Below, piece by piece: positions 32,578 through 62,013 of a stretch of 64,000 nt of DNA. This DNA comes from Devosia aurantiaca (GTDB lineage Bacteria > Pseudomonadota > Alphaproteobacteria > Rhizobiales > Devosiaceae). The notes under the pieces were generated by a model, which was not told the origin of the DNA, made no database searches, and worked only from the letters and a program-made list of their open reading frames with translations. The stretch lies in the NCBI RefSeq assembly GCF_011058215.1, contig NZ_JAALFG010000002.1, positions 310,001 to 374,000 on the forward strand, in the 5' to 3' direction. The translations under genes and the position numbers were made by a program. The first letter of the stretch is position 1. Every line of letters starts with the position of its first letter.

Positions 32578-33310
32578 TCAGCCCGCGACGAGTTCCTGGT
32601 CCTGCGATAATTGCCAGGCGTCGAGCCGCAGACCGTTCTGATGACGGAGGCGCTGCTCGGCGAGCAGGGTAAAAGCTGGAGCGAGGAGATCAGGCTCAAC
32701 CCACTTCTGCTTAAGTTCTTCGGAATAATTCCGGTCCGACATCGGCGTCTTCATGAACATGCCGGGCGTGACGGTATTGACGGTGATGCCGAGGGCTTCG
32801 CCCTCCATTGCCAGCGACTTCGCCAGGCCCTCGAGCGCATGCTTTGCGGCGCAATAGGCGGACTCGTCGGCAAAGCCTTCGATGCCGGAGCGCGACGAAA
32901 CAAAGACGATAGCTCCGCCGCCATGCCTTGCCATGCTGTCCCAAACGGCGCTCGCCAGCTGGAAACCGGCCTGTAGCCCGACATTGAACGTTCGGAAAAA
33001 GCTCGAAGCTCTCATCGGCAAACGCCGTGGGACGGAGGATCGCCGCGTTGTGGATGACCGTATTGATACGACCCAGCTGCCCGAAGGTCTTGGCGATTGC
33101 GACGCTGGTTTGCGCCCGGTCGGAAAGGTCGACCTCGATGGCGATCGCCTTGGGACCGCATTGGCGCGTCGTCTCGGCCAACGAAACAGCGTCATAATCC
33201 ATGAGCGCAAGGCTGGCGCCACAAGCTGCCAACCGCCGCGCGATGGCGGCGCCCAGCCCCTGCCCGGCGCCTGTGATGATGACGCGCTGCTCCGAAAGCG
33301 GTCGCGTCAT
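32578..33310 (-). CDS. SDR-family oxidoreductase
   Basis: About 243 residues after removing one extra T in the run at 32996-33000 (junction ESFELFRTFNVGL). Classical short-chain dehydrogenase: cofactor motif ITGAGQGLGAAIA, NAA-type motif (VIHNAAIL), catalytic Ser in FVSSRSG and Tyr/Lys in SAYCAAKHA. The Asp after the second strand (ALMDYDAV) suggests NAD. It is the last gene of the 16-gene leftward operon and overlaps the preceding oxidoreductase by ATGA. Confidence 0.85.
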
Positions 33311-34384
33311 GTCCGTTCTGCCGGCAGATCGACCCACGCCCGGGTCGAGGTGGACTGCTTGACGGCGTCCAGCACGCGCTGGTTTGCCAGGCCATCGAAG
33401 AACGTCGCGCCGGCGCGCAATTTGCGGCCTTCGGCAATGGCAGCGGTCAGCTCGCGCAGCGCTGCGACCACCGAGACGTTCCAGATGCCTTTGTTGAGGC
33501 CCGGCAGCGCAGCATTGGGATCGGACGCGGTAATGTCTTCAAAGCTTCCGCCCGCCTTGGCGAACATCAGCTTCTCGTCGTCATTGTCGAGAATGATCGA
33601 ACCCTTGGAGCCGAAGACCTGCGTGAGATTGCCGATATTGTTTGCGGCCACGCCACTCATGAAGATCTGCGCCAGCGCCCCGCTTTGCATCTGGAGCGTA
33701 AAATACGAAAGATCATCGGCCGTTGCCGTCCAAGGCTCGCCGGTTTTCTTGTCGAGACGATCGGGAATGACCGTCAGCGCCTGCCCGACGACGGAGGCCA
33801 CGGGCCCCAGCCACCAGCGCACCATGTCGACCTGGTGGCTGCCATTCGCGCCCAAGCGGCCGCCGCCATGTTCGGCAAGGCTCCACCAGTCGCCCTTCGG
33901 ACGGCTCGCCGGGTCGGCCCAGGAAGCGCCGATATTGGCGATGTTGACGTGCCGGATCTCGCCCAGATCGCCATTGGAGATCATCTCGGCGACCTTGGCG
34001 CGGTTAGGGTTGAAGCGCAGCTCGTGGTCGATCATGTGGACGCGGCCTAGTGCTTCGGCCTTATCGAGCATGGCCGATGCCTCCGCCGCATCCATCGCCG
34101 TCGGCTTTTCGCAGAGCACATGCGCACCCTGCTCCAGTGCCGCGAGCGTTATAGGCGCGTGAAGGTCCGTTGGCGTCGCGATCAGCACGAGGTCGGGCGA
34201 ATGCTTGTCCAGCATTTCCTGCCAGTCGTCATAGGCAGCCGGCACACCGAATTCGTCCGCCGCCGACTTGGCGCTGTCGAGCCGGCTCGAAGCCAGTGCG
34301 ACCACTTCGGCCCCGTCGACATGACGCAGGGCGGGGGAGATAGGCGGCGCGGGCAAAGCTCGCGCCAACAATACCAACTTTCAT
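33307..34384 (-). CDS. Gfo/Idh/MocA-family oxidoreductase
   Basis: About 358 residues after removing one extra C at 34333-34337. The repaired N-terminus MKVGIVGASFARAAYLPALRHVDG restores the Rossmann GxGxxA-like motif. Later motifs are CEKPTAMD (the conserved EKP), DHELRFNP and NGSHQVDMVRWWLG, where Asp/His fit the catalytic site. The family oxidises or reduces sugars, inositols and amino-sugar derivatives with NAD(P). The ATG at 34384 overlaps the permease stop by ATGA, which independently supports the repaired start. Confidence 0.88.
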
Positions 34385-35331
34385 TGTTCTTGCTCTTTGG
34401 TTGGAGAATTAGGCCATGGTCTTGAGACGGGGTCGAGAAAATCGCGCAGCCAGTCGCCCAGGATGTTGAAGGACAAAACGGTCAGAACGATCGCAATGCC
34501 CGGGAAGAAGGCCAGCCACCACTTGTTGGCCATGAGCTGATCGCGGCTATCGGCCAGCATCGCGCCCCAAGTGGGCACGCTGGGCGGAACGCCAAGCCCA
34601 AGGAACGAAAGCGATGCTTCCGAAAGGATCACCGATGCCACGTTAAAGGAGGCGATCACGGTGAGAGGCGCAATGATATTGGGCAGGATCGTGCGGAAGA
34701 TGATGAGGAAGGTGCTGTCGCCAAGCGCACGCGCCGCCTCCACATACTCCTTTTCGCGCAAGGACAAGGTCTGCGCGCGCACGATACGGGCATAGGTCAC
34801 CCACTGTCCGACGCCGAGCACGATGATGATGTTCATCACGCCCGGTCCCAGGATCACGAGAAACATGATGGCTAGAAGAATGAAGGGGAAGGCCAGCTGG
34901 ATGTCGCCCAGGCGCATGATGACGTCGTCGATCCAACCGCCAAAATAGCCGGCAACGAGTCCGGCAACGACGCCGATCGTTCCACCGACCATGATGGCGC
35001 AGACGCCGACAAGGAGCGAAATCCGCGCGCCATAGAGCAGACGCGAGAGGACGTCACGCCCCAGACCATCGGTACCGAGCAGGAAAAAGGCGTTGCGCCG
35101 TCCCTCGGTCAACGGATCAGCGAGGCGCATCATGATGTCCTGCCGATTGGGATCGAGCGGCGAAATCCACGGCCCGAAAATGCCGGCAAAGACCACAAGC
35201 AGCAGCACGAACAGTGCGAGAAGCGGCCACTTCGCCTGCACCATGGACCGGAACGCGCGCCGGATTTCGCGGCGGCGATGCGACATGGGACGAACCTTGA
35301 GGGGCGCCGACGGGATAGTTTCTACCGACAT
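34381..35331 (-). CDS. ABC transporter permease, DppC/OppC type
   Basis: 316 residues. The N-terminal OppC_N segment is SMVQAKWPLLALFVLLLVVFAG. About six membrane helices and the BPD_transp_1 domain with the EAA loop (EYVEAARALGDSTFLIIFRTILPN) follow. The FLLGTDGLGRDVLSRLLYG string is typical of peptide/nickel permeases. It pairs with the DppB-type permease 11 bp upstream. The matching ATPases lie on the other arm at 58.3-60.3 kb. Confidence 0.94.
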   Translation of the reverse strand: MSVETIPSAPLKVRPMSHRRREIRRAFRSMVQAKWPLLALFVLLLVVFAGIFGPWISPLDPNRQDIMMRLADPLTEGRRNAFFLLGTDGLGRDVLSRLLYGARISLLVGVCAIMVGGTIGVVAGLVAGYFGGWIDDVIMRLGDIQLAFPFILLAIMFLVILGPGVMNIIIVLGVGQWVTYARIVRAQTLSLREKEYVEAARALGDSTFLIIFRTILPNIIAPLTVIASFNVASVILSEASLSFLGLGVPPSVPTWGAMLADSRDQLMANKWWLAFFPGIAIVLTVLSFNILGDWLRDFLDPVSRPWPNSPTKEQEQ

Positions 35332-35342
35332 GCCGGCCTCCC

Positions 35343-36332
35343 TTAAAGTTTCACGCGAGGGTCGATCCGGGCGTAGATCAGATCGACGATGAGATTGAGG
35401 GCGATAAACACCATGGCAAGGACGACGACCGCCGCCTGAACCACAGGGATGTCGCGCTGGTTGATGGCGTTGAACACGAGGCGCCCAAGACCAGGCCAGG
35501 AGAAGACGATTTCCACCACGACGACGCCGCCGATCAGGAAACCGAATTCGAGACCGATCATGGTCACCACAGGGAGCCAGGCATTGCGCAGCGCATGGTG
35601 GATCACCACGGCCCGTTCGCTGATGCCTTTCGAGCGCGCGGTGCGGACGAAATCCTGGCCCAGAACTTCTAGCATCGACGAGCGCACGAGGCGCGCATTG
35701 CGCGAGATAGAATAGAAGGCCACGGCAAAGCCGGGCATGATCAGGTAGTAGAGCGTCTGCGGCAGGTTGGTGAAGGCGCGAACGAAATCGCCCTGGATCA
35801 GCGGCATGATGAAGGGCACATGCCCCGAAATCGGCAGAATGCGCAGCTGCAGGCCAAAGAACATGATCATCATGATGCCGAGCCAGAAACTGGGGATCGA
35901 TTGCCCCAGCATGGCCATGGTCATCACCGAGCCGTCCGTCGCGCTGCCGCGATTGAGGGAGGCAACGACACCGAGCGGAATGGCAACGATGATCGCCAGC
36001 ATCATGGCAAAGATCGTGAGCTCCAGCGTCGCCGGCAGCGCATCCATCACCGCTTCAATGGCCGGGCGCTTGTAGGACAGCGAATTGCCGAAGTCGCCCT
36101 GAAGCAGGTTGCCAAGGAAGGTCAGGTATTGCTCCGGCAAAGGCCGGTCGAAACCGAGCGCCTCGCGGGTGCGCTGGATTTCCTCAGCCGTCGCGCGCTC
36201 GCTGACATAAAGATAAGTCGGGTCGCCACTCATCTGCAGCGCCGTAAACGTGATGAGCGTTACCCCGATGATGACGATGGCGCTTTGCAGGAGGCGCCGG
36301 AGAATAAAGGTCCACATTGGCGGTCGGCCCAT
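35343..36332 (-). CDS. ABC transporter permease, DppB/OppB type
   Basis: 329 residues with six helices. It starts with WTFILRRLLQSAIVIIGVTLITF, typical of DppB, and carries the EAA loop (QDFVRTARSKGISERAVVIHHALRNAWLPVVT) and the C-terminal IYARIDPRVKL. It forms the inner-membrane channel with the DppC-type subunit. The start may be the ATG at 36332 or the one at 36317; neither has a strong ribosome site. Confidence 0.94.
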   Translation of the reverse strand: MGRPPMWTFILRRLLQSAIVIIGVTLITFTALQMSGDPTYLYVSERATAEEIQRTREALGFDRPLPEQYLTFLGNLLQGDFGNSLSYKRPAIEAVMDALPATLELTIFAMMLAIIVAIPLGVVASLNRGSATDGSVMTMAMLGQSIPSFWLGIMMIMFFGLQLRILPISGHVPFIMPLIQGDFVRAFTNLPQTLYYLIMPGFAVAFYSISRNARLVRSSMLEVLGQDFVRTARSKGISERAVVIHHALRNAWLPVVTMIGLEFGFLIGGVVVVEIVFSWPGLGRLVFNAINQRDIPVVQAAVVVLAMVFIALNLIVDLIYARIDPRVKL

Positions 36333-36345
36333 CTAGAAAGAGGGA

Positions 36346-36379: not shown

Positions 36380-37929
36380 TTATTTTAGCTTGGCAGCAAA
36401 GAGCTCGATCTCTTCGTCGCGACGCGGCTTCCAGTCGATGCGGTTGGAGACGCCGTAGAAGTCGGGCTGGAAGTAAAGCTGCAGCCACGGGCCTTCGTCG
36501 TAGAAGAGCTTGAGCATGCGGTTGATCACCGGACGCGCTTCCTCGACCGTGTCGGCGTCGATGGCGAGCTTCCAGTCATCGAACCAGCGCTGGTCGGTCC
36601 AGCTCTGGTAGTTGGTGGCGCCATCGGGGGTCGAGAACAGGCTCATGTCGTAGAGCGGGTTCCAGGTAACGCCGCCCTGCCCCAGGAAGAACAGCGGACC
36701 CATCTCCTTGGTGCGCAGCAGCGGCGAATAGACCGATGCCCATTCTAGGAGCTCGACCTCCGTCTCGATGCCCACATCGTTGAGATACTGGCCAATGGCC
36801 TGCACCACGTTGGCGTCATTGAGATAGCGGCCACGTGGACCCTGGAGGCGGATGGAGAAGCGCACGCCGTTTTCCCCGCGCGGGTAACCGGCTTCGTCGA
36901 GCAGCTGCTCGGCCATGTCCGGATCATAGGGTATAGGCTCGAGGTCGGGATTGCCATTGGGCGGATTGACGAGGCTCGTCATGCGCGTGCATTCGGTGCC
37001 CAGGAGCTGGCTGCAGATGCCCGGGACGTCCACTGCATACTGCATGGCAAACCGCACCTTGGGGTCCTGGATCTCCTTGGCGCCCGGCATGCCCTCGACA
37101 CCCTTGCCAAGGTTGAAGCCAACCTGCATGCGGCGGGTGCCATCGACCTGCTCGACCGTCGCCGAACCGGAATTGTTGATGGCATCGATCTGGTCGGGTG
37201 CGACATTGGTGATGATGTCGACATTGCCAGCGATGAGCTCTGCCGTGCGGGTCGACGCTTCCGGAATGATGCGCCAGATGATGGTGTCGAACGTGCCCGG
37301 ATCCTTGACCTTTTCGAGCACGATCTGTGAGCCGCGATCCCAGGAGGCCACGCGGTAGGAACCCGAGCCGACGGGATTGCTGGCGGCCTCTTCGACCGTC
37401 ATGGCCTCGTAGCTGTCTTTGCAGTGAATATAGACCTGCGCCATCATGCCCAGCGCCAGCGTGGTCTTGGCGGTGAGGTTGACCTTGACGTTGAGGTCGT
37501 CGACCACCTCGGCCGATTTGAAGCCCAGCGTCGTGTAGACGAAGCCCGGCGTGTTGCCGGTAAAGGCGCTGGCCTTGTCGGCCGGGCGATTGAACGAATA
37601 AGCCACGTCTTCTGCGGTCAGCGGTTCGCCGTCTTCGCAGGTCAGGTCAGGCTTGAGCGTAAACGTATAGGAAAGCCCGTCTTCGCTGACGGCGGTTTCG
37701 TCGACGAGATAAGGCTGCACCTCGCCCTCGAAGTTCACCTGGAACAGCGTCGCGAAAATATGCTTGGCGATATTGGCATTGTCGCGGCTCGAAATCTGCG
37801 CCGGATCGAAGGTGGAAGCATCGGCGCTCAGGCCCACGACAATGGTGTTGTCGGGGGAGCAGCCAGCGTGGTGGTCGTCAGAGCGGCACCCAGTGCCGCG
37901 GCAAGCGCCAAACGTGACAGTGTTTTCAT
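36380..37929 (-). CDS. Peptide-type ABC transporter substrate-binding protein (SBP_bac_5), copy 1
   Basis: About 516 residues after restoring one C at 37853-37857 (junction TLAAPPDNTIVVG). Signal peptide MKTLSRLALAAALGAALTTTTLA. The SBP_bac_5 fold is shown by SADASTFDPAQISSRDNANIAKHIF, PDLTCEDGEPLTAEDVAYSFNR and GSGSYRVASWDRGSQIVLEK. It captures the transported compound in the periplasm. It is closely similar along its length to the neighbouring copy at 38036-39591. The ATG at 37929 is required to give the signal peptide. Confidence 0.93.
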
Positions 37930-37992
37930 GGTCATTCCCTCGTTGACCTCCCGGAAGCACTCTTTATCGCCAGCCTGTTCCTGCCGGCTTTT

Positions 37993-38035: not shown

Positions 38036-39591
38036 TTACTGCGCTAGAGCGGTGTCGAAGAGATAGACCTTCTCGTCACGGCGCGGCTCGAAGGTCACGC
38101 GGTTGGAAACGCCGTAGAAGTCCGGCTGGAAGTAGAGCATCAGCCACGGCGGATCGTTGTAGAAGACCTCGAGCATGCGATCGATGACGACGCGGCGCTC
38201 TTCTTCGGTCGTGGCGGCAGCGATCTCTTCCCAGCCGGAGAACCAGTCGGGGTTCTTCCACTCGGTGTAGTTGGTGCCCGCATCGACTGCCGAAAGGTCG
38301 GCCATGTCATAGAGCGCGCTCCAGGTGCCACCACCCGAGCCGAGGAAGAACATCGGACCCATGTCATGCCCGGACAGCATCGGCACATAGACCGAGGCCC
38401 ATTCAAGCAGTTCGACATTGGTCTTCACGCCGATATCGTCGAGATACTGGCCGATGGCGAGAGCCACGTTGGCGTCGTTGAGGTAACGGCCACGCGGAGC
38501 CTGGAAGGTGATCTCGAAACGGGTGCCGTCTTCGCCGCGCGGATAGCCGGCAGCGTCGAGCAGTTCCTCAGCCTTGTCGGGATCGTAGGGATAAGGCTCA
38601 AGCGAGGCATTGGCGTTGGGGGATTGACGAGGCCGGTTGCGCGGGTGCACTCGAAGTTGAGGAGCTGGGCGCAGATGGCTTCGACGTCGACCGCATACTG
38701 AAGCGCCACGCGAACGTCGGTCTTCTGGATGGCAGCGCCACCTTCCGAACCCGTTGCGAAGTCTTCGCGCATGTTGAAGCCGACATAGATGCGGCGAGTG
38801 CCCTGCACGGACTTGACCGCGGCAGTGCCGGAATTGTTGACGGCATCGAGCTGGTCGGGGGCGACATTGGTGATGATGTCGACATTGCCCGCGATCAGTT
38901 CAGCCGACCGGGTCGAGGCTTCTGGAATGATGCGCCAAATGATGTTCTCGAAATTGCCCGGATCCTTGATCTTTTCGAGCACAACCTGCGATCCGCGGTC
39001 CCAGGAGGCCAGGCGGTAGGAGCCCGAAGCGACCGGCGTAGCGGCAGCATCTTCAAGGCTCATCGCCTCGTAGCTGTCCTTGCAGTGAATGAACACTTCG
39101 GCGATGAGGCCGAAGGACACCGGGTTCTTCTTGGTGAGGTTGATCTTGACCTCGTTGTCGCTGACCACCTCGGCACCGTTAAAGCCGATCGAGGAGTAAA
39201 CGAAGCCAGGCGTGTTGCCGGTGAAGGCGTTGGCCGGATCGGCAGCGCGGTTGAACGAATAGGCCACGTCTTCTGCGTTGAGAACTTCGCCGTCTTCGCA
39301 GGTGAGGTCGGGCTTGAGCGTATAGGTGTAGCTCAGGCCGTCTTCAGCCTCGACATAGGATTCCGCCATTTGCGGAACGATGTCGCCTTCGGGCGTGATT
39401 TCATAGAGCGTGCCGAAGATGTGCTTGGCAATGTTCGAATTGTCGCGGCTGCTGATCGCGGCAGGGTCGAAGGTCGAGGCATCGGCGGAAATGCCAACGA
39501 CCAGCGTGTCTTCAGGCGGGGCGGCGTAGGCGGAAGCGAGCGGCAAGATAAGCGCCGCCGTGCCTGCCATGAGAATGTGTCTCACGGTCAT
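38036..39591 (-). CDS. Peptide-type ABC transporter substrate-binding protein (SBP_bac_5), copy 2
   Basis: About 518 residues after restoring one C at 38618-38622 (junction GLVNPPNANASLEPY). Signal peptide MTVRHILMAGTAALILPLASAYA. The same domain order as copy 1: SADASTFDPAAISSRDNSNIAKHIFG, PDLTCEDGEVLNAEDVAYSFNRA, ASGSYRLASWDRGSQVVLEK, and the C-terminal WLMLYFQPDFYGVSNR. Two similar binding proteins for one set of permeases suggest a family of related ligands. The ATG at 39591 overlaps the preceding stop by ATGA. Confidence 0.93.
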
Positions 39592-40663
39592 GATAGGGAC
39601 GTCCTTTGCTGGAGTTCAGACTGCTGGGTTTGGCCGATCTCTCGCTTCGCATGCGTATTGAGATCAGCCGGATTAATCGCTTGGCCCTGTTGCGCGGAAA
39701 GTATGCAGGCTTGAACCATGCGAAGCGAATTGAGGTGGTCGCATCCCGAGCACAGCAAAGGTGCCGTGCCGCGCAGGGCGGCGACAAAAGCGGCGAGCAA
39801 GGCGATCGCGTCATTGATCCATTGCTCGTAGGGCGGTAGCGGCACGCTGGTCAGCGCGACATCGCCATGAAGGGCATAGTTGAGGTCGCCGAACTGATCG
39901 TTCTGGATCACGACGCCCTTGGCGCATTCGCTGCGCCACTGGAAACCTGGTGCCTGCCAATTGGACTGCCACAGGCCCTGGTAGTTGACGGTGACGCCAT
40001 TGGCGAACGTGATCAGCGCCGAGACATTGGCGTCGTCTCGATACATCGACCAACTCGGGTTGAAGGTCTTGCCGAAGACCGCCACCGGCTCGGATTTGTA
40101 GACATAGCGCATGAGGTCGAAGTGGTGGATCGACTGCTCCCACAGCATCGGCTGGTCCATGGTCAGCGGATACTTGTTGAAGTTCGGCCTCCAGCCATCG
40201 CGCCAGCGCTCGTAGGTGAAACGGGCAAATTCGGGCGCACCCACCGTTTGGTCCATCAGCCGCATAGCTTCCTGCGTGACCGGCAGGAACCGGAAGTTGA
40301 GGCCCACCATCAGCGGCACGCCGGCGTCTTCCGCCATCTCTACATAGCGGGCGGCAAGCTCGACGCTGTCAGCCAGGGGCTTCTCGGCCAGGATTGGCAA
40401 GCGCGCTGCGCAAGCCGCTTCCATCTGTGCCTCGCGACCGCCCGGGGCGTCGCCAGCAAGACGGCATCGGCTTCGATCTGCCCAATAAGGCTGACATCAG
40501 CCGATGCTTTGGCATCGGGCCATTGCGCCAATGCACGCTCGCGTGCCGCTTCCGACGGATCAACCAACCCGACGATGGTACAATCCGGGTTCTCGCGGAT
40601 CACCCGCATCCAGAATTGCGCGCGGGCACCCAGGCCCACCAGGATGATGCGGAGAGGGCTCAT
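39588..40663 (-). CDS. Gfo/Idh/MocA-family oxidoreductase
   Basis: About 358 residues after restoring one C at 40444-40447 (junction LLATPPGGREAQMEAA). The N-terminal Rossmann motif is ILVGLGARAQFW, then AEKPLADS (EKP motif), NFRFLPVTQEA, and QSIHHFDLMRYVY around the catalytic region. A second, different member of the family in the same operon, so two separate NAD(P)-dependent steps are likely. It overlaps the epimerase stop and the binding-protein start by 4 bp each. Confidence 0.88.
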
Positions 40664-41574
40664 CGGGCCACCTCGATGTTACGGATGGCGGCAAGTCCGT
40701 CGCGCAGCGGCGTCCAGGCATAAAGCGCTTGAAGGTCGACGCGATCGCTGCTGATCGGCAGCCGTGGCGCTTGGCCGAGCGGCGCGACGTCGACCCGGGC
40801 ACCATCGACAAGGCCTGCAATCATCTCGGCCAGTGCCAGGTTGGAGACGATTTCCGCCGAAGTCAGATGCACGACGCCCGAAACCTTCGGCTCCTGGGCC
40901 AGCAGCGCATCGAGCGCACGTGGAAGATCGGGTGCAAAGGTCCAGTCGCGGCACTCCTCTGGCATCTGCACGATGATCGGCTCGCCGCTTTCGACGCGGT
41001 CCAGCCAACGCCGAACCTGCGACACGATCTTGCGCGTTCCGCGGCTGGCCTCATGTGGCCCATAGATCGGTCCGAGCCGGATCGAGATCGCGCGCAGCGT
41101 CGTCGACCCTGCCGCAGCAGTAGCACTTTCCCCTGCCCGCTTCGCCGCCGCATAAGGCATGGTCGCAGTCGGAACCGTGCTTTCCAGCTGCACGCCTTCA
41201 CCATCATCGACCGAGAACACGCCCGAGGATGACATGAACACAAAGTCGGAAGCCCCATGCCCCACGGCAAGTGCCAGCGCATCTTCCAGCATCGCGACAT
41301 TGGCCGCGACGTGCTGCTCCGCCGACATTCCGAACTCTTCGGGTGGCGTCGTGATCGCAGCGCCGTGAATAACAAGATCGACGGTCCGATCATAGGGCAG
41401 CACGTCTGCCGAAACCGGCGCCTCGATCAGCTCAACCCCCGCCAGTCTTTTTCGAGTCCGCGAATCGAAAGCGGCATCGAGCGCGATCACCGCGTCACCC
41501 ATTGCGGCGAAGCCTTCCGCCATATGCGAGCCGACAAAGCCGCCGGCCCCCGTGATGAGAACCGTGCGGCTCAT
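40660..41574 (-). CDS. NAD-dependent epimerase/dehydratase (extended SDR)
   Basis: 304 residues. Extended SDR: ITGAGGFVGSHMAEGF at the N-terminus (GxxGxxG), LVIHGAAITTP, catalytic Ser in FMSSSGVFS, and YxxxK in MPYAAAKRAGE. IRLGPIYGPHEASRGT is the usual substrate-loop region. It probably acts on a nucleotide sugar, free sugar acid or similar polyol. Translationally coupled on both sides. Confidence 0.88.
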   Translation of the reverse strand: MSRTVLITGAGGFVGSHMAEGFAAMGDAVIALDAAFDSRTRKRLAGVELIEAPVSADVLPYDRTVDLVIHGAAITTPPEEFGMSAEQHVAANVAMLEDALALAVGHGASDFVFMSSSGVFSVDDGEGVQLESTVPTATMPYAAAKRAGESATAAAGSTTLRAISIRLGPIYGPHEASRGTRKIVSQVRRWLDRVESGEPIIVQMPEECRDWTFAPDLPRALDALLAQEPKVSGVVHLTSAEIVSNLALAEMIAGLVDGARVDVAPLGQAPRLPISSDRVDLQALYAWTPLRDGLAAIRNIEVAR

Positions 41575-42248
41575 GGCGCCAGCCCCAGTTCTTCCGGCGC
41601 AATCTGGGCCGCGGAGCGCGTGTGGTCGGAGATCAGCGAGATGGCGAGGATCATGTCTCGCTTTTCGATCGCCTCAATGATCGGCGGATGGTTCTTCGCC
41701 ACCGCCCTGAGGTCACGGTTGGCGCTGTTGCGCAGCGCCATGATCTGCCGAATGCGTAGGTATAGATGCTCCCAAAAGCTCAGCACCAGGCCGTGGTCGG
41801 CCAGCCGGATCAGCGTGCGGTGAAACGCCTCGTCCGCATCGTTCAGTGCTGCCAGGTCGTTGCGCTCCGCTGCCGCAAACATTGCGTCCGAATGCACCCG
41901 CAGCTCCGAAACATCCACCTCCCGCTCGACGACGCGGCGGATGGCGAAGGCCTCGAACTGCTCGCGAAGGCTATAAACCTCCTCGACTTCCTTGAGCGTC
42001 AGCGTTTTGACCCGCTTGCCCTTGTAGGGCTCGCTCTCGATCAAACCGTCCGCCTCAAGAATCTGGATCGCCTCGCGCACCGGCGCCCGCGATACCTTGA
42101 GCTGCTCCGCCAGAGCCATTTCGACGACCGGCGATCCCGGCCGCATCGATCCATTGATGATGGCCTGGCGGATGATGTCGGCCACAGACACGCGCAGCGG
42201 CACGTTTTCGATACGGGCGATGTCGCTGGTCTGCGGCTGGCTCATCAT
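41571..42248 (-). CDS. GntR-family regulator, FCD (FadR) subfamily
   Basis: 225 residues. The N-terminal winged HTH (about 15-85) has SVADIIRQAIINGSMRPGSPVVEMALAEQLKVSRAPVREAIQILEADGLIE. The C-terminal FCD ligand domain (about 95-215) has conserved Arg, Asp and His positions (DEAFHRTLIRLADH, DHTRSA). FCD regulators usually respond to organic acids or sugar acids. It is embedded in the operon, and the palindrome at 48889-48904 is a good candidate operator. The start follows directly after the aldolase stop. Confidence 0.92.
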   Translation of the reverse strand: MMSQPQTSDIARIENVPLRVSVADIIRQAIINGSMRPGSPVVEMALAEQLKVSRAPVREAIQILEADGLIESEPYKGKRVKTLTLKEVEEVYSLREQFEAFAIRRVVEREVDVSELRVHSDAMFAAAERNDLAALNDADEAFHRTLIRLADHGLVLSFWEHLYLRIRQIMALRNSANRDLRAVAKNHPPIIEAIEKRDMILAISLISDHTRSAAQIAPEELGLAP

Positions 42249-48888: not shown

Positions 48889-48904
48889 AGATTGTCGACA
48901 ATCT
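48889..48904. promoter_or_regulatory. Perfect 16-bp palindrome in the divergent promoter (candidate GntR operator)
   Basis: AGATTGTCGACAATCT is a perfect palindrome with a TTGTCGACAA core, like the short TGT-N-ACA sites bound by FCD-type GntR regulators. It lies in the 195-bp gap between the two divergent operons, and a GntR/FCD gene is in the leftward operon. Confidence 0.65.
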
Positions 48905-48985
48905 AACGAGCTAATGTTGGACAGGGAATCTGGTGGATGTCAAGCGACGGAAAAACGGGGCGTCGAAAATAGTGGAAGCGTGGAA

Positions 48986-50741: not shown

Positions 50742-50746
50742 TACCC

Positions 50747-53004: not shown

Positions 53005-53022
53005 CCCAAGAGAATAAGAGAC

Positions 53023-54252
53023 ATGCCCGAACCCGCCGCCTGGAAATATACCAAGATCACCAAGCCCATGTTCGACCTCAAGCCGGTCGACCAGGTCCTC
53101 CTCGGCCGCATCATCACGGCTGTGGGCGACGAGGTGATCGAGGACGGCTTCGTCGAAGTCGCCGGCGGCAAGATCACCCGCGTCGGTCCACGCTCCGATA
53201 TGGGCACGCCCAGCGGCACGGTGACCGACACCGGCGGCAAGACCATCATGCCCGGCCTCATCCAGTCGCATGGCCACCTCGCCTGGGACGGCGTGCACGA
53301 ACTGAGCTGGCAGTCCATGTATGACAGCCCCGAAATCCGCGCCTATAAGGCCGCCGGTAATATGCTGAAGTCCTTGCGCGCTGGCGTCACTTTGGTTCGC
53401 GACCTAGGCGTCCACAACGCCAACCTCTTCGCCAAGCAGGCCGTCGCCCAGGGCTTCTTCCCCGGCCCACGCCTCCTCGTCTCGGGTGAGTCCATCATCC
53501 AGACCGGCGGCCACACCTATTGGGTCTGCCGCGAGGCCTCGGGCGCCGACGAAATGCGCCGGGCCGTGCGCGACCAGGTCAAGGGCGGCGCCGATCTCAT
53601 CAAGATCATGGCCTGCCACGATACGCTCGAATTCACCGATGCCGAGCTCGAAGCCGTCATCGACGAAGCCCACCGCAACCGCCTGCCGGTCACCGCCCAC
53701 GCCACCTACGATGCCTGCATCCGCCGCGTTGCCGAGTTCGGCGTCGATTGCGTCGAGCATGGCGGCTCGATGAGCGACGAAACCATCCAGATCCTCCTCG
53801 ACAAGAAGATCCCGATCGTCACCACCTTTTCGGCCCTAGTCATGCAGGCGAAGCCCGATATCGCCCGCGCTTTCGGCATTCCCGAGTGGAAGATCCTCGA
53901 GCGTCAAAAGGCGGTCGGCGACAAGACCCGCTTCGATGGCCTCGTGCGTGCCTCCAAGGCCGGCGTGCCGATCGTCTTCGGCACCGATGCCGGCAGCCCC
54001 GCTGTCGAGCATGACCAGATCGCGCCCGAACTCGATTTCATGGTCGAAGTCGGCGTCTGCCCCAATCGCCTCGATGCACTGCGCGCCATCACCATTCGGG
54101 GCGCCCAGCTTTCGAAACTGGACCACAAGATCGGCACGGTCGAAGTCGGCAAGGAAGCCGACCTGATCGTCGTCGACGGCAAACCCGATGAGGATCTGTT
54201 CGCGCTCGAACGCGTCATGATGACCTTTATCGCCGGGAAGAGGATGCACTGA
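53023..54252 (+). CDS. Metal-dependent amidohydrolase (imidazolonepropionase/prolidase-like)
   Basis: 409 residues. N-terminal beta domain, then the metal site QSHGHLAWD (HxH), the Lys/His strand LIKIMACHD, VTAHATYDA (His), VEHGG and the catalytic Asp in VFGTDAGSP. The C-terminal GTVEVGKEADLIVVDG closes the composite site. Members cleave C-terminal Xaa-Pro/Arg dipeptides or cyclic amides. The next gene starts inside its stop (TGATG). Confidence 0.88.
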   Translation: MPEPAAWKYTKITKPMFDLKPVDQVLLGRIITAVGDEVIEDGFVEVAGGKITRVGPRSDMGTPSGTVTDTGGKTIMPGLIQSHGHLAWDGVHELSWQSMYDSPEIRAYKAAGNMLKSLRAGVTLVRDLGVHNANLFAKQAVAQGFFPGPRLLVSGESIIQTGGHTYWVCREASGADEMRRAVRDQVKGGADLIKIMACHDTLEFTDAELEAVIDEAHRNRLPVTAHATYDACIRRVAEFGVDCVEHGGSMSDETIQILLDKKIPIVTTFSALVMQAKPDIARAFGIPEWKILERQKAVGDKTRFDGLVRASKAGVPIVFGTDAGSPAVEHDQIAPELDFMVEVGVCPNRLDALRAITIRGAQLSKLDHKIGTVEVGKEADLIVVDGKPDEDLFALERVMMTFIAGKRMH

Positions 54253-55433
54253 TGAGCTTTCTGAACGACCACATGGCCAACCGCATCACCGAGGACGACG
54301 GCTCGTTCCGGACCAAGATGCTCGGCATTGCCGCCAACATGACCAATGTCATCGCCATGGGCCGCGGCGACCCCGATTTCCATACGCCGGCGCATATCGT
54401 GGAAGCGGGCAAGAAGGCTCTCGACGAGAACCAGCACCACTATACCGGCCCGCACGGCATCCCGCCGCTGCGCGCCGCTATCGCCGAGCACCTCAACAAG
54501 GAATACGACCTCGATTACTCCGCCGACGACATCGCCGTCACTGCGGGCGTCCAGGAATCGATCACCCTGATCATGCTGGCGCTGATTCAGCCCGGCGACG
54601 AAGTGCTGATCACCTCCCCGCGCTTCACCACCTATGACATGGCGGTCAATCTCGCCGGCGGCGTACCCGTCCCGGTCCCGACTTTCCAGAAGGACGACTT
54701 TGCCCTCGATCTCGCCGAGATTGAAAAGCGCATCACGCCCAAGACCAAGATGTTCGTACTGGTCTCGCCCAACAATCCGACCGGCGCCGTCACTCCGCCC
54801 GACGTCATCCGCGGCATCGCTGAGCTTGCCATCAAGCATGACCTCGTCATCGTCTCCGACGAGATCTATGCCAAGATCATCTATGACGGCTTCGAGCACC
54901 TTTCGATCGCTTCGCTCCCGGGCATGAAGGATCGTACCATCACGCTCAATGGCTTCTCCAAGACCTATGCCATGACCGGTTGGCGCGTCGGCTACATGGC
55001 CGCCCCCGCCGACTTCATCTCCCGCGTCACCGACACCCGTCACACGCTTTCGATCAACACCTCGACCATCAGCCAATATGCCGCTCTAGCTGCCCTCAAA
55101 GGACCGCAGGAGCCGATCGATGTTATGATCGAGGAATACAAGGCGCGCCGCGACTACTTGCTTCCCGCGCTCGACGAAATGGGCCTCACCTACGGCAAGC
55201 CCGGCGGCGCCTTCTACGTCTATATCAACGTTGCCGGCACCGGCATGTCGACGCCCGAATTCTGCGAAAAACTTCTGCGCGAAACCGGCGTCATGCTCTT
55301 CCCCGGCACCATGTTCGGCGACCATGACCCCAGCTACATCCGCATGTCGTTCCTGCAGCCGCTCGACAAGATCAAGGATGCCGTCGAGCGCATGAAGGGC
55401 TTTATCGCCAAGCACGCGAAAGCCGCCGCATGA
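54252..55433 (+). CDS. Class I/II pyridoxal-phosphate aminotransferase
   Basis: 393 residues. Motifs: MGRGDPDFHTP, TAGVQESITLIMLAL, SPNNPTGAV, SDEIYAKIIYDG and PLP lysine K237 in NGFSKTYAMTGWRVGY. The overall pattern fits the aspartate/aromatic-like aminotransferases. It is a paralogue of the enzyme at 46052-47253; two in one regulon suggest two different amino groups or a tandem transamination. Coupled at both ends. Confidence 0.93.
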   Translation: MSFLNDHMANRITEDDGSFRTKMLGIAANMTNVIAMGRGDPDFHTPAHIVEAGKKALDENQHHYTGPHGIPPLRAAIAEHLNKEYDLDYSADDIAVTAGVQESITLIMLALIQPGDEVLITSPRFTTYDMAVNLAGGVPVPVPTFQKDDFALDLAEIEKRITPKTKMFVLVSPNNPTGAVTPPDVIRGIAELAIKHDLVIVSDEIYAKIIYDGFEHLSIASLPGMKDRTITLNGFSKTYAMTGWRVGYMAAPADFISRVTDTRHTLSINTSTISQYAALAALKGPQEPIDVMIEEYKARRDYLLPALDEMGLTYGKPGGAFYVYINVAGTGMSTPEFCEKLLRETGVMLFPGTMFGDHDPSYIRMSFLQPLDKIKDAVERMKGFIAKHAKAAA

Positions 55434-56857
55434 CCGACAAGCCCAACCCCGCCGAAAAGTTCGTCGGCATCCAGGTCAGCCCGATCAACTTCATCGACGA
55501 GGGCGTCGAAAACGTCCTCGACATTCTCAAGGATCGCGTCGGCGTCAACGTCCTGATGCTGGGCACGGTGTCCTGGCTTGGCCTCAAGACCGGGCGCTCA
55601 ATCTCCTACAAGCTCGATGGCTGGCCCGACCACGGCGTGCCCGAACCCTTCGCCATGAAGGGCGGCGCCTACTTCCAGCCCGATCCCGCCTATTACAACG
55701 GCACCTTCATCAAGGACTATCGCGCCAAGGACCCTGAGTTCGAAGGCAAGGACATCCTCGACATGGTCATCGCCCCCGCACACGAGCGGGGCATGAAGGT
55801 CTTCATCGAACTGATGGAGCCCTTCTTCAAATATACAGGCCACGGTTCGACCAACACCGTCGACATCCCGAACCTCGCCCAGGCCATGGAAGTCGACATC
55901 TTCGGCCGCCTCGGCAGCGATCCATCGACCAGCCATCCCGATTATCGCAATTGGATCCTCTCCATGGTCGAGGATCAGGTTCGCAATTACGACATCGACG
56001 GCGTCATGTGGTGCAACGAGCGAAATTCGCCGCTCGATACGCTGATCCAGGGCGGCGCCCCAGGCGATTTCTCGACCCATGCCCGTCGTGAGGCCATGGA
56101 ACGCGGCATCGATGTCGAGGCCTGCCGCCGCGCGCTCCTCAACCTCTACGACTTCATGCAGGAAGCCGCCTCGGGCAAGGAATTCGCCGACGGCGCCTTC
56201 ATCACGTTCATCCGCACCTTGCTCGCCAATCCCGAAGCCTTGATCTGGGAAAAGTTCTGGCTCGAACGCAACAAGGACTTGGACCGAGAACTCTACGGCT
56301 TGGTCAAGTGGTGCAAGCCGGGCTTGAGCTTCGGCCTCAACGTCTGGAACCGCAACCATTTCAACATCTTCCGCCGCGCGCAGTGGCCTTGGGAAGAGCA
56401 GACTATGTATGCCGATTGGGTCAAACCGATCACCTACCAGCACCAAGCTGGCGAGGTGTTTACCAAGGAGCTCGGCTTCTTCCAGAAGACCATCCTGCGG
56501 GACTTCTCGCCCGACGAGGCGACGGCAGTTCTCTATAAGGTCCTGGGACTTAGCGAGGCGCCTTACGCCAATGTCATAGCTGCGGGCATGGACCCGGACA
56601 CCTATGTCTTCGGCCAGTGCGCGGACGCCGTCAAAGGCGTCAACGGCAAAGCCAAGGTCTTCATGGGCCTCGGCGTCGACGCCCCGCGCACCAAGTCCGA
56701 AACTGCCAAGATGACGCCCGACATCGCCTACCGTTCGGTCATGGCGACCTATCGCGCCGGCGGCCACGGCGTGGTTCTCGCGCCCAACTACGCCAGCATG
56801 CATCTCACCAACCTTGACGGTGTCGCCAAGGCTCTTACGGAATTGGGGCTCAAATAG
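55430..56857 (+). CDS. Unknown protein, probable TIM-barrel (glycosidase-like)
   Basis: 475 residues without signal peptide. Alternating strands and helices resemble (beta/alpha)8 glycoside-hydrolase-like proteins: GVNVLMLGTVSWLG near the N-terminus, APAHERGMKVFIELMEPFF, YDIDGVMWCNERNSP (acidic residues after a strand), FGLNVWNRNHFN, and the end AGGHGVVLAPNYASMHLTNLDGV. I cannot name the family. The carboxylates in DGVMWCNE and IELMEP are candidates for catalysis. ATGA overlap with the aminotransferase and TAGTG with the next gene place it firmly in the pathway. Confidence 0.7.
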   Translation: MTDKPNPAEKFVGIQVSPINFIDEGVENVLDILKDRVGVNVLMLGTVSWLGLKTGRSISYKLDGWPDHGVPEPFAMKGGAYFQPDPAYYNGTFIKDYRAKDPEFEGKDILDMVIAPAHERGMKVFIELMEPFFKYTGHGSTNTVDIPNLAQAMEVDIFGRLGSDPSTSHPDYRNWILSMVEDQVRNYDIDGVMWCNERNSPLDTLIQGGAPGDFSTHARREAMERGIDVEACRRALLNLYDFMQEAASGKEFADGAFITFIRTLLANPEALIWEKFWLERNKDLDRELYGLVKWCKPGLSFGLNVWNRNHFNIFRRAQWPWEEQTMYADWVKPITYQHQAGEVFTKELGFFQKTILRDFSPDEATAVLYKVLGLSEAPYANVIAAGMDPDTYVFGQCADAVKGVNGKAKVFMGLGVDAPRTKSETAKMTPDIAYRSVMATYRAGGHGVVLAPNYASMHLTNLDGVAKALTELGLK

Positions 56858-58263
56858 TGGCCGATTACGATACCATCATCCGCAATGCCGAAGTCCTCAC
56901 CCCTGAGGGACTCCGCCCGGTGGACGTCGCCCTCGCAGGCGGCTCGTTCGCGGCTCTCCTCCCGCGCGGTGAGGGTGTTTCAGAGCAAACCATCGATGCG
57001 ACCGGGCAGCACCTTCTGCCCGGCGCCATCGACATCCACTTCCATATTCGTGCACCGGCCTACCCCGATCGCGGCACGGTGGAAAGCGAGACGCAGGCTG
57101 CAGCCGCAGGTGGAATTACCACGCTGTTTGAAATGCCCATCTCAAAGCCCTGCTGCAACACGGCAGAGCGCGTAGAGATCCGCCGCGCCCACTTCGCCGA
57201 GCACGCCTTCATCAATTTCGGCCTCTATGCCGCTCCGGGCGATCTGACCGACACAAGCGTCCAGGCCATGGCTGCCGGTGGCATCGTCGCCTACAAGATC
57301 TTCACCACCCCCGCCCCCGCCGGACGCGACGACGAATTCTTCGGCCTGTCCTTCCCCGATGAAGCCGACCAGATGCGGGCTCTCAAGGCTGTCGCCAAGA
57401 CCAACCTGCCCATCGTCGTCCATGCCGAAAGCGCGCAACTGCTGGCGCTGGCCGAGGCCGATATGATCGATGCCGACCTGGCCAATATCGACAGCCACTT
57501 GGCCTCTCGCCCCGCCATCTGTGAAGCGGTCGCCGTCGCCAAGCTGCTGCTGATGAACATCGAAGCAGGCGCCAAGCTCCACATCGCCCATGTCACCAGC
57601 GCACTGACCGTCGACGTCCTGCGTCGCTTTGCGGGCACATCGGACTTTTCCGCCGAGACCTGCCCGCATTATCTGTTCCGCACCCATGAGGACGTCCGCC
57701 GCGCCGGCGTCTTCGCCAAGATCAACCCGCCCGTGCGGCTTCAGGCCGATCAGGACGCGCTCTGGCAGGCGATCGCCGATGGCATCATTACCCATGTAAC
57801 CACCGACCATGCCGCTTTCTCCTATGCGGAAAAGGTCGGCGGCGCGGGCAACATGGTCACGGCGCCTCCCGGTTCGCCCGGCTCCGAAGTGCTGGTCCCT
57901 TCTATGCTCGACGCGGTTGCGCGAGGCAGGATCAGCATGGAAAAAGCCATGGCTCTTTTGAGCGGCAACGGCGCCAAGCGCTTCAACCTGCCGAGCAAGG
58001 GCCATATTGCGGTCGGTGCCGATGCCGACCTGATCCTCGTCGACATGAACGCCAAGACCAAGATCAGCCCCGAAACACTGCTCACCTTCGCCCGCGACGT
58101 CGCCCAGCTTTACTACGGCGCCGAGTTCCAGGGCCGCATCCAGCGCACCATTGTCGCCGGCCAGACTGTCTACGATGGTGGCATAGAAGGTCGTGCAGGC
58201 TGGGGCCACTATGTGAGCCCGCCCGCGGCCGCCACCCCCGCCGATTCCCGCTTGAGTGCCTGA
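56857..58263 (+). CDS. Cyclic amidohydrolase (dihydroorotase/allantoinase/hydantoinase family)
   Basis: 468 residues. Binuclear-metal amidohydrolase: [32 protein letters not shown] (HxH), the bridging-Lys position in [16 protein letters not shown] (His), [10 protein letters not shown] (His), [17 protein letters not shown] (Asp) and the C-terminal [11 protein letters not shown]. The family opens cyclic ureides such as dihydroorotate, allantoin and hydantoins. The local context favours a catabolic ureide over pyrimidine synthesis. GTG start inside the previous stop. Confidence 0.88.
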
Positions 58264-58294
58264 CCCCATGACCATTCCCGTCGGAGGCCCCCAA

Positions 58295-59315
<1,021 letters not shown>

Positions 59316-59319
<4 letters not shown>

Positions 59320-60319
59320 GCGCCGTGATGGACACCACTGCCCCCAAAGCGCGCGACGTGCTGCTGCAGGTGCAAAACCTCAAGAAGTACTTCCCCATCA
59401 GCGGCGGCGTGCTCAACCGCGTCGTCAACAATGTCAAAGCCGTCGATGACGTCAGCTTCGACGTGTTGCGCGGCGAGGTCGTCGGCCTTGTCGGCGAATC
59501 CGGATCCGGAAAGACCACCGTCGGCCGCACTGTGCTGCGCCTTGCCGAACCCACCAGCGGCTCCATCGACTTCGACGGCGCCGACATCGCCAAGCTCCCC
59601 AAGCCCGAGATGCGCCGCTACCGCAAGCGCATGCAGATCGTCTTCCAGGATCCCTACGCCAGCCTCAACCCGCGCGAGAAAATCCGCACCGTCCTCGGCC
59701 ACGCACTGGCAATGCACAACGTCGTTCCACCCTCCGAACGCGAAGACCGCATCGTCGCACTGCTCGAACAGGTGGGCCTCAGCGGCGACTACCTCGACCG
59801 CTTCCCGCATGAATTCTCGGGCGGTCAGCGCCAGCGCATCGGCATCGCCCGCGCCCTGGCCGTGGAGCCCGATTTCATCGTCGCCGACGAACCCGTCTCG
59901 GCCCTCGACGTCTCGATCCAGGCTCAGGTCGTCAACCTGCTCGACGACCTCAAGACCAAGTTCAACCTGACGATGCTCTTCATCGCCCACGATCTTGCCG
60001 TGGTCGAGCACATCAGCGACCGCGTCATCGTGATGTATCTGGGCCGCATCATGGAGATCGCCCCGACGCGCACGCTCTACCGCGCGCCCAACCACCCCTA
60101 CACCAAAGCCTTGCTCTCGGCCGTCCCCAGCCCCGACATTCACGCCAAGAAAGAGCGCATCATCCTCAAGGGCGATATTCCCAGCCCGATCAACCCCCTT
60201 CCGGCTGCGTCTTCCGCACCCGTTGCCCCATGGCGATTCCCGACTGCGCCAAGATCGTGCCCGTGCTCAAGGAAGTGACACCGGGCCAGTTCGCAGCCTG
60301 CATTCGCACGGCGCCCTAA
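59316..60319 (+). CDS. ABC transporter ATP-binding protein, DppF/OppF type
   Basis: About 334 residues after restoring one C at 60194-60198; the repaired end reads [29 protein letters not shown] and stops at 60317-60319, recovering the cysteine-containing oligo_HPY tail. Walker [11 protein letters not shown]-loop [11 protein letters not shown], signature SGGQRQR, Walker [14 protein letters not shown]-loop [20 protein letters not shown] is a DppF-type N-terminus. ATGA overlap with the DppD-type gene. Confidence 0.93.
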
Positions 60320-60343
60320 ACCATTGCCGACCAGGATTTTTCG

Positions 60344-62013
60344 ATGACCGACCTCGACGTCAAATTCGACCGCTATTACACGTATGACGAAATGACCGAG
60401 CGCCTCCGCGCCCTGGTCGCCGCATACCCGCATCTTGCCACCATGACCTCGCTGGCCAAGAGCTTCCAGGGTCGCGACGTCTGGCTCATCGAGATCAGCA
60501 ATCCCAAGACCGGCCCTGCTGCCGAAAAGCCCGGCTATTACATTGACGGCCAGATCCACGCCGAGGAACACGCCACCTCCGCCGCCGCTCTTTATGCCGT
60601 CTTTCACCTTCTGACCAAGTACGGCGAAGACGAGGAAGCCACCCGCCTCGTCGACAGCCAGGTCTTCTACATCCTGCCGCGCATCAACCCCGATGGCGCC
60701 GAACTCTCGCTTGTCCCGCCCTACTACAACTGGTGTGGTAATGGCCGCTTCATGCCCGGCGCCGACCGCCTCGAAGGCCTGATCCCCGAGGACATCGACG
60801 GCGATGGCTATATCGTCTGGATGCGCGTCCCCGACAGTAAGGGCGAGTGGAAAAAAGCGCCACCAATCCGGACATTATGGTCCAGCGCAAGCCGGGCGAA
60901 GAAGGCGGCCAATACTACCGCCTTTATCCCGAGGGCACGGTGCGCAATTTCGATGGCGTCAACGTCCCCGTCGAAAAGCCCTTCGACGGCAACATGAACC
61001 GCAACTTCCCCACCCACTGGTCACCCCAGGAATATGGCGCCGGCATCCATCCGCTCTCCGAGCCCGAAGCCTTTGGCATGGCCAAGTTCATCCTCGACCA
61101 TCCCAATATCTGCGGCATGTGCGCCTACCACACCCACGGCGGCATCATCCTCAGGCCGTCGATGACCAAGCCCGACACCGCCATGAGCGCGCGCGACATC
61201 AACCTCTATAAGGAAATCGGCAAGGTCGGCACCGAGCTCACCGGCTATCCCACGGTCTCGATCTACGAGGAATTCACGCCGGACAAATCCGTCGTCCGCC
61301 GCGGCGGCCTCATGGACTGGACCTATGAGGAGATGGGCATCATCTCCTTTGGCACCGAGCTTTGGGATCTCGAACGCACCGCCGGCGTCCCCAAGGAAGG
61401 CTATTACAACCTCTACCCGCGCAACGAAGAGGTCCAGCAAAAGGTCTACGACTACGTCAAGGCCAACATGGCCGAAAAAGGCTGGCGCGACTGGAAGCCC
61501 TTCGACCACCCGCAACTCGGCAAGATCGAGATCGGCGGCATGGTCAATATTTGGAGCTACCGCAATCCGCCGGGCAGCCTGCTCGAGGACATGGTTCGCC
61601 AGAACATCCTCTTTAACCTCAAGCACGCCGCAGCGGCCCCGCAGGTCAAGGTCGACGAGATCGGCGTAACGGCGGTCGGCACCGATCTCTACAAGGTCCG
61701 CGCCGTCGTCTCCAACCACGGCTACCTGCCGTCCAACCTCTCCGACGTCGCCGTCGCCAATAAGGTCGCAAAGCCTGTCACCGTCTCGATCGTCGTCGAC
61801 GGCGGCGAACTGGTGATGAACCCGCAGACAGCCGATCTCGGCAACCTCGCCGGCCGCAACGAGCGGCTCTATCCCTGGTCCCCTTGGGGCCAGCAATGGA
61901 CCGCCAACGGCAAGCCTGTCGAGTGGCTGGTGCGCGCGCCGCAGGGCAGCACTATCACCGTCACCAGCCAGTCCGAAAAGGGCGGCACCCATCGGCGTAC
62001 ACACACGCTTTGA
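60344..62013 (+). CDS. M14-family zinc carboxypeptidase
   Basis: About 556 residues after restoring one A at 60851-60856 (junction GEWKKSATNPD). Zinc ligands: DGQIHAEEHATS (HxxE) and the His in MCAYHTHGG; the Arg/Asn substrate clamp in GNMNRNFPTHW; catalytic Glu in SFGTELWDLE. The C-terminal 110 residues are a beta-sandwich (VVSNHGYLPSNLSDVAV...KGGTHRRT). No signal peptide is visible, so it likely acts after import. AGGA precedes the ATG. Last gene of the rightward operon. Confidence 0.92.

Follow-up and report, generated by a model that had tools for sequence, protein, structure and literature searches.

Ectoine breakdown clusters (doeAB/eutDE) combine an M24-fold hydrolase with an AspA/AstE deacylase and an aminotransferase; in a published account of this route (PMC3187862), DoeA is an M24 protein resembling creatinase and DoeB deacetylates the DoeA product. 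Allantoin utilisation (PuuE, AllB, AllA and AllD), the Opp/Dpp peptide importers and the breakdown of creatinine and N-methylhydantoin offer further partial parallels. Families from all of these systems meet in or next to a 27-gene cluster of Devosia aurantiaca, which we analyzed within a stretch of 64,000 nucleotides (assembly GCF_011058215.1, contig NZ_JAALFG010000002.1, positions 310,001 to 374,000; hereafter, the window). On balance, we favor the view that the cluster is a two-armed catabolic regulon importing an amide-rich, peptide-like conjugate that is likely then cut intracellularly at C-N bonds of carboxypeptidase, cyclic-amide and amidine type. Likely components of the conjugate are an amidine or ureide and a part resembling a sugar or cyclitol, and the pathway has likely spread horizontally.

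The likeness to each described system is partial. Unlike the ectoine clusters, the Devosia locus has a DoeA match of 30.8 bits (cut-off 613) and a DoeB match of 90.3 bits (cut-off 402.7), and it adds an Opp importer, two more carboxypeptidase families, cyclic amidohydrolases and DUF4438 proteins. The importer genes are those of Opp/Dpp systems (two SBP_bac_5 binding proteins, OppB, OppC, OppD and OppF), yet the one binding protein scanned reached no NCBIfam cut-off among the matches listed. An earlier reading of the window, made from its sequence alone (the sequence-only reading), knew of no described pathway with this gene set; searches of open-licence papers for the gene combination likewise found no relevant paper and no such pathway.

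Gene content of the divergent arms

The cluster is arranged in two back-to-back arms (Table 1), with 16 genes on the minus strand (48790 to 32596) and 11 on the plus strand (48970 to 62013). The sequence-only reading had given 26 genes; its left arm of 16 holds, while a recount of the open reading frames raises the right arm from 10 to 11 and the total to 27. We called families with Pfam on the window proteins and on intact Devosia copies of the frame-broken genes, and the families named earlier were all borne out at their positions. The two SBP_bac_5 proteins, two permeases and two ATPases with oligo_HPY domains scored above Pfam cut-offs, which supports the peptide-type ABC uptake proposed in that reading. 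The regulator in the left arm carries GntR (62.2 bits) and FCD (65.2 bits) domains, both over cut-off. In aligned orthologues, the metal motifs that we take to be typical of M32, M14, AspA and both amidohydrolases are kept (a few duplicate rows are included in these alignments, and the M14 set has 17 rows).

Three peptidase-fold families, M32, M14 and M24, had been recognized from the sequence. All three folds are present, M24 with the fold model PF00557 over cut-off, but metal-dependent peptidase activity is improbable for the M24 protein. An alignment to a solved prolidase-type protein shows G, E, H, E and I at its five ligand positions in 63 of the 64 distinct sequences, with Gly replacing the first Asp, Glu the second Asp and Ile the last Glu; the exception (locus L097), 29% identical, keeps the ordinary D, D and E. 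The loss of three of the five metal ligands points away from a prolidase and suggests a metal-free hydrolase of amidines or guanidines. The Glu at the second Asp position is a pattern that we take to be shared with creatinase and ectoine hydrolase. The AspA-type deacylase is DoeB-related, matching PDB 6twl and 6twm (about 3e-21).

The right arm opens with a pair of DUF4438 proteins, in which both Pfam domains (PF14505 and PF20999) are over cut-off (157.7/145.2 and 168.1/132.8 bits). TM1086 (PDB 3dcl and 3n99; 191-195 bits) is their sole clear relative among solved structures and was deposited as uncharacterized. DUF4438 was not found in the open-licence literature searched. We consider the pair a likely unrecognised enzyme of the first steps. 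Elsewhere, DUF4438 occurs mostly as one copy per matching genome (299-genome phylum sample), whereas the cluster loci always hold a pair. Many sampled genomes of family f50 carry DUF4438, and there, by reading, the single copy lies beside a nitrilase-like gene (L127:7753-9497 and L128:7191-8938); these single copies probably have a different, separate role. The GHL10 protein of the same arm passes its Pfam cut-off (32.5 versus 27.9 bits) over residues 103-193 only and has no PDB relative by sequence. In a structure model (pLDDT 84), its best fold matches were Cwp19 (Foldseek E 1.1e-11, TM 0.49/0.62), PgaB and other TIM-barrel glycosidases.

Conservation of the cluster

A search of genome contigs with an alignment of DUF4438 proteins yielded 143 relatives, from which we kept the best 80 loci with 10-kb flanks. 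Presence at a locus was scored by tblastn (E <= 1e-10), a threshold that also admits some distant paralogues. Because the flanks are 10 kb, genes far from DUF4438 are undercounted. The adjacent DUF4438 pair is found in 80 of 80 loci, and its recurrence with the PuuE/AllA/Ldh_2 set confirms the conserved neighbourhood that the sequence-only reading had called for. Among the 58 of 80 loci that span at least 20 kb, both DUF4438 genes are present in 58, Ldh_2 in 57, the VOC protein (Glx) and GHL10 in 55, the epimerase and right aminotransferase in 54, GFO1 and M24 in 53, the two amidohydrolases (Amh1 and Amh2) in 51, M32 and the left aminotransferase in 46, AllA in 45, PuuE in 44 and AspA in 42. 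Lower counts were obtained for OppF (37), OppD (36), GntR (34), SBPa (31), DapA (26), OppB and OppC (24 each), GFO2 and M14 (22 each), SDR (5) and SBPb (1).

Gene order is preserved in D. soli, D. psychrophila and a metagenome-assembled genome (MAG; G016), all three of the genus Devosia, with the last left gene, SDR, absent from D. soli and G016. A genome of another order (G241, the record of L082) has a nearly complete set, partly rearranged and without SBPb. Largely the same order is also kept in Rhizobium, Aureimonas, many Rhodobacterales and MAGs labelled Acidobacteria and Gemmatimonadota. A copy in Enemella (Actinobacteria) is 70-89% identical to its best matches, mostly Rhodobacterales, in the six genes checked, a likeness that may stem from horizontal transfer or from contamination.

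In loci of the Chloroflexota group the set is rearranged. The 15 such loci (one labelled Pleurocapsa, several short) contain GntR (15), Glx (15), GHL10 (13), M14 (11), the right aminotransferase (11), M24 (9), AspA (4) and the left aminotransferase (3). They share with the other loci the DUF4438 pair, Ldh_2, an aminotransferase, the AllB-like enzyme, M24, M14, GHL10, the epimerase, GFO1, GFO2, the Opp permeases, a binding protein, the VOC protein and GntR. These shared genes suggest a substrate whose common element is an amidine or amide with sugar-like parts, PuuE and AllA being a lineage-specific addition. An M20 family gene is present in 13 of the 15 loci (L101, L102, L104-L108, L110-L114 and L116; Pfam confirmed the L105 copy), and 4 of these 13 have AspA too.

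A shared palindrome between the arms

A 12-bp palindrome (ATTGTCGACAAT) separates the divergent starts and is the predicted operator of the GntR/FCD protein of the cluster. TTGTCGACAA occurs exactly once in the window and at 5 sites in the 3.69-Mb genome, versus 1 for a reversed control. We inspected 400 bp upstream of DUF4438a in the 78 of 80 loci with enough sequence, which are related loci and not 78 independent events. The core TGTCGACA is present in 61 of these regions, TTGTCGACAA in 30 and the full 12-mer in 20, while the remaining 1,415,559 bases of the same loci contain TTGTCGACAA once. Locus L108 of the Chloroflexota group has the palindrome in the form TTGTATACAA. In 5 of 6 loci of this group inspected by reading, a TTGACA-/TATAAT-like promoter is placed ahead of the palindrome, with a TTGACA-like box past it on the opposite strand. 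Since promoter-like boxes flank the palindrome on opposite strands, a single bound dimer could stop both transcripts. The four other genomic TTGTCGACAA sites are C1:611986, C1:953339, C2:699998 and C2:710633.

Because the gene set recurs and the palindrome, with its conserved core, lies between the arms, the cluster is most likely one regulon, and it is probably controlled by its own GntR/FCD protein. The regulator would bind the palindrome and silence both arms until an intermediate binds to it. The histories of the arms agree as well: when pairwise protein distances were compared between left and right genes, the median r was 0.83 (minimum 0.56, 72 gene pairs). The single bidirectional regulon of the sequence-only reading is thus supported by the shared palindrome, the conserved neighbourhood and the correlated arms.

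A predicted route for the conjugate

The family assignments suggest an order of steps. The Opp-type importer, with its two binding proteins, two permeases and two ATPases, would take up the compound, and the M14, M32 and COG1228-type enzymes could then trim amino acids from its C-terminal end. Opening of a cyclic amide or ureide would fall to the AllB-like and PuuE-like enzymes. An amidine or guanidine C-N bond may be cleaved by the metal-free M24 protein, as by DoeA in the ectoine route, and the AspA-type deacylase would remove an N-acyl group, as does DoeB; the M20-type gene could take over deacylation in 13 of the 15 Chloroflexota-group loci. The aminotransferases, Ldh_2, GFO/IDH proteins, epimerase, SDR, DapA-type aldolase and GHL10 would feed the resulting amino-acid and sugar- or cyclitol-like pieces to central metabolism. 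Each of these steps, from uptake through carboxypeptidase action, ring opening, amidine cleavage and deacylation to transamination, is predicted from protein families.

That so many genes stay together in several phyla, and with one conserved palindrome, implies that the compound is widespread. The cluster also gives DUF4438 a functional setting and offers a candidate M24 protein in which metal-free hydrolysis can be tested. With a predicted operator, a regulator and binding proteins named, the substrate is therefore open to direct ligand and reporter screens.

Several observations weigh against this reading. None of the 20 cluster proteins from the window and Devosia relatives that we scanned against NCBIfam passed a cut-off among the matches listed (the best 25 for the largest families). 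The M24 protein has prolidase-type proteins as its nearest solved relatives (142.7 bits versus 47.8 bits for creatinase) and, for this reason, amidine chemistry is read from residue loss only. The 50 GHL10 fold matches listed reach a query-normalised TM of at most 0.54, and a glycosidase role for this protein is suggested by the modelled fold only. The palindrome core is absent from 17 of the 78 upstream regions. A variant, TGTATACA, is found in 6 of these (two Aureimonas, two Rhizobium, L098 and one Chloroflexota locus, as TTGTATACAA), and 11 have neither; the two core-less Aureimonas loci are also without the cluster GntR. Conservation is patchy too. Within the 10-kb flanks, M32, PuuE, AllA, OppD and OppF are found in 0 of 15 Chloroflexota-group loci, and DapA and SDR, for which the same flanks lead to undercounting, are found in 28 and 5 of the 80 loci. 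The gene list may therefore describe several related substrates. Among 37 genomes of the genus, 4 contain DUF4438, D. aurantiaca included, with two copies each, and to the left of the set, D. soli, D. psychrophila and G016 show no window matches at >=50% identity. This distribution indicates that the set is probably an accessory unit spread horizontally. The distance correlation, calculated within the cluster, reflects a common history and does not separate joint transfer from shared descent.

Alternative explanations

Scavenging of peptides or muropeptides would account for the Opp-type importer and for three carboxypeptidase families (M14, M32 and COG1228-type). A barrel whose best fold matches are Cwp19 and PgaB could act on the glycan, and Ldh_2 could handle lactate. 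We nevertheless consider this explanation unlikely. The Pfam results include no amidase, LD-carboxypeptidase, NagZ/NagA or MurQ type, families that we presume such a pathway would need, and PuuE, AllA, the DoeB-like deacylase and the metal-free M24 protein would be left without a role.

To a similar degree improbable is a route for cyclic guanidines derived from creatinine, hydantoin or arginine, such as glycation adducts. The M24 ligand loss would fit this chemistry, as would the genes to the right of the cluster. In Devosia, roughly 12 kb more of the locus lie beyond the window edge, including hydantoinase A/B and creatininase-family genes. Two short-chain dehydrogenases and hydantoinase B are followed (L132) by hydantoinase A, a second GntR-FCD regulator (GntR2), Asparaginase_2, a creatininase-family protein (PF02633, 131.8 bits versus a cut-off of 31.3), SDR, a DegT aminotransferase and RidA, and then by a third SBP_bac_5-like protein and a second M14 protein. 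The Asparaginase_2, creatininase-family, DegT, RidA and second M14 genes lie at L132:4301-11872, beyond the window. Hydantoinases A and B are frame-broken in the D. aurantiaca genome too; for them and for GntR2, the Pfam matches were obtained with the copies of D. psychrophila, a genome that retains the series. In G016, the SDRs, RidA, DegT, hydantoinase A/B and GntR2 are kept; in the stretch covered for D. soli, DegT, the third binding protein and the second M14 were not detected. In a Methylobacterium MAG (L098), hydantoinase A/B, GntR2, DegT, RidA and both SDRs stand beside the DUF4438 pair.

This extension is limited in its distribution, however. We searched 20 genomes, picked among the 80 loci, for HyuA orthologues of >=70% identity and found one in 5 (three Devosia, L098 and L099); the other 15 include 12 with HyuA relatives of <=44% identity and 3 with none. 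Judged by these orthologue counts, the extension is an accessory module. The exact palindrome was not found in the extension right of the window, the creatinase identity of the M24 protein is weak, and the sugar-type dehydrogenases would be left unexplained. Creatinine and N-methylhydantoin breakdown resembles the locus in the creatininase-family and HyuAB proteins of the extension and in an M24 protein without a metal site. It differs in the rarity of HyuA and in the lack, among the Devosia Pfam results, of any sarcosine-handling family of the kind we presume to be required.

A more specific form of the conjugate reading is a complete pathway for an abundant amidine-bearing conjugate of an amino acid and a cyclitol or sugar. 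The mycosporine-like amino acids, which serve algae, cyanobacteria and fungi as sunscreens, are an example. The metal-free M24 protein would then be a new amidine hydrolase and the carboxypeptidase-fold enzymes would free amino acids. The inositol-dehydrogenase-like GFO/IDH pair and the epimerase would handle the cyclitol, GHL10 would remove sugars and the DUF4438 pair would be a new enzyme class. So narrow an assignment is distinctly unlikely to be correct.

We regard as very unlikely an ordinary allantoin or ureide pathway with extra genes. PuuE-like, AllB-like and AllA-like genes do co-occur, all four families of allantoin utilisation are represented, and the scores of PuuE (374.6-379.5 bits) and the AllB-like protein (296.6 bits) come near their cut-offs (424.6 and 357.85). 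Yet all the cluster versions are under the curated NCBIfam cut-offs. The cluster PuuE scores 379.5 bits against TIGR03212, and AllA, which passes the broader Pfam family PF04115, reaches 70.7 bits against a cut-off of 212 and 66.5 against 160. The AllD-like Ldh_2 protein scores 222 bits as a sulfolactate dehydrogenase versus 146 as AllD, both under cut-off. Another PuuE, above the cut-off with 496.4 bits and 43% identical to the cluster copy, is encoded about 500 kb away (C2:855084-855977), with an AllA in two frame-broken pieces nearby (C2:858400-858875); C2:855084-858875 is apparently the genome's ordinary allantoin locus. No match to allantoicase or to the M20 family of allantoate amidohydrolase is among the Pfam results of the Devosia cluster genes, and PuuE and AllA are found in 0 of 15 Chloroflexota-group loci. 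We rejected the ordinary allantoin pathway because the above-cut-off PuuE lies with AllA elsewhere and the cluster copies are diverged and missing from Chloroflexota loci. The compound with peptide-like and ureide- or sugar-like parts proposed by the sequence-only reading keeps its peptide-type uptake, while its ureide part is weakened by the diverged PuuE and AllA, by their absence from the 15 Chloroflexota-group loci and by the better match of the AllD-like protein to sulfolactate dehydrogenase.

That two unrelated operons adjoin by chance is extremely unlikely: although Chloroflexota and some variant loci have rearranged or incomplete arms, the two share a palindrome, their distances correlate and the same genes are together again after rearrangement.

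Frame breaks and neighbouring genes

Comparison with the copies of relatives revealed 11 frame breaks across 10 of the 27 genes, two of them in M32 (Table 1), and OppF probably has a further break at its end. Near the start of DUF4438a, a G run is one G shorter than in relatives. On the same contig, rpoB, about 3-7 kb left of the window (L135:6920-11154), is also split over two frames, so the breaks in the cluster are most likely assembly errors and not real; indel errors are apparently frequent in this assembly of 6 contigs and 3.69 Mb. A decaying, non-functional cluster, to which 10 broken genes might point, is hardly credible given the broken rpoB, at least one difference that is a shortened G run, and the match of each of the same genes in D. 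soli, D. psychrophila and G016 as one unbroken tblastn piece.

Table 1. Features of the D. aurantiaca cluster and its right border (window coordinates).
Feature	Position	Strand	Evidence
M32 carboxypeptidase-like, HEXXH kept, two frame breaks	47268..48790	-	Pfam, motif alignment
Aminotransferase class I/II, left copy (AT_L), one frame break	46052..47253	-	Pfam, NCBIfam scan
VOC/glyoxalase-fold protein (Glx), methylmalonyl-CoA-epimerase-like	45558..46043	-	Pfam, NCBIfam scan
AstE/AspA (DoeB-related) deacylase, one frame break	44553..45552	-	Pfam, NCBIfam scan, PDB relatives
PuuE-like cyclic amide hydrolase, polysaccharide deacetylase fold, diverged from the genome's above-cut-off PuuE	43617..44525	-	Pfam, NCBIfam
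AllA-like protein (ureidoglycolate lyase family), diverged	43150..43617	-	Pfam PF04115
DapA/N-acetylneuraminate-lyase family aldolase (DHDPS)	42249..43148	-	Pfam
GntR-FCD transcription regulator	41571..42248	-	Pfam
NAD-dependent epimerase/dehydratase (Epim)	40660..41574	-	Pfam, NCBIfam scan
GFO/IDH/MocA oxidoreductase 1 (GFO1), one frame break	39594..40717	-	Pfam
SBP_bac_5 binding protein a (SBPa), one frame break	38036..39750	-	Pfam
SBP_bac_5 binding protein b (SBPb)	36380..37960	-	Pfam
OppB-type permease	35343..36332	-	Pfam
OppC-type permease	34381..35331	-	Pfam
GFO/IDH/MocA oxidoreductase 2 (GFO2)	33307..34377	-	Pfam, NCBIfam scan
Short-chain dehydrogenase (SDR), last left-arm gene, one frame break	32596..33310	-	Pfam
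Palindrome ATTGTCGACAAT, 12 bp, predicted operator of the cluster GntR/FCD	48891..48902	.	
DUF4438 protein a (DUF4438a), TM1086 homologue (PDB 3dcl/3n99), start region one G short	48970..49866	+	Pfam
DUF4438 protein b (DUF4438b), 4-bp overlap with DUF4438a	49863..50741	+	ORF listing, Pfam
Ldh_2 family 2-hydroxyacid dehydrogenase, one frame break	50746..51827	+	Pfam, NCBIfam scan
M24-fold protein, 3/5 metal ligands replaced, one frame break	51824..53004	+	Pfam, alignment
COG1228-type amidohydrolase (with relatives active on C-terminal Arg, Lys or Pro)	53023..54252	+	Pfam, NCBIfam scan
Aminotransferase class I/II, right copy (AT_R)	54252..55433	+	Pfam
GHL10 TIM-barrel, glycosidase-like fold	55430..56857	+	Pfam, structure model
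Cyclic amidohydrolase, AllB/dihydropyrimidinase-like	56857..58263	+	Pfam, NCBIfam scan
OppD-type ATPase, one frame break	58268..59319	+	Pfam
OppF-type ATPase, C-terminal end probably frame-broken too	59316..60278	+	Pfam
M14 zinc carboxypeptidase-like, one frame break	60344..62013	+	Pfam
Short-chain dehydrogenase x, start of extension	62100..62819	-	
Short-chain dehydrogenase y, also adjoins DUF4438 pair in L098	62816..63580	-	
Hydantoinase B, C-terminal end, cut by window edge	63577..64000	-	

Elsewhere in the window, a sulfate adenylyltransferase subunit gene (20498-22383) is, by reading, also frame-split. Directly left of the cluster (29798-32394) are a PAS-type histidine kinase, recognized by reading, and a response regulator identified with Pfam. 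Farther left, a cellulose synthase operon can be read at 3069-11783, with a BcsA-like gene at 9654-11783 and its neighbours.

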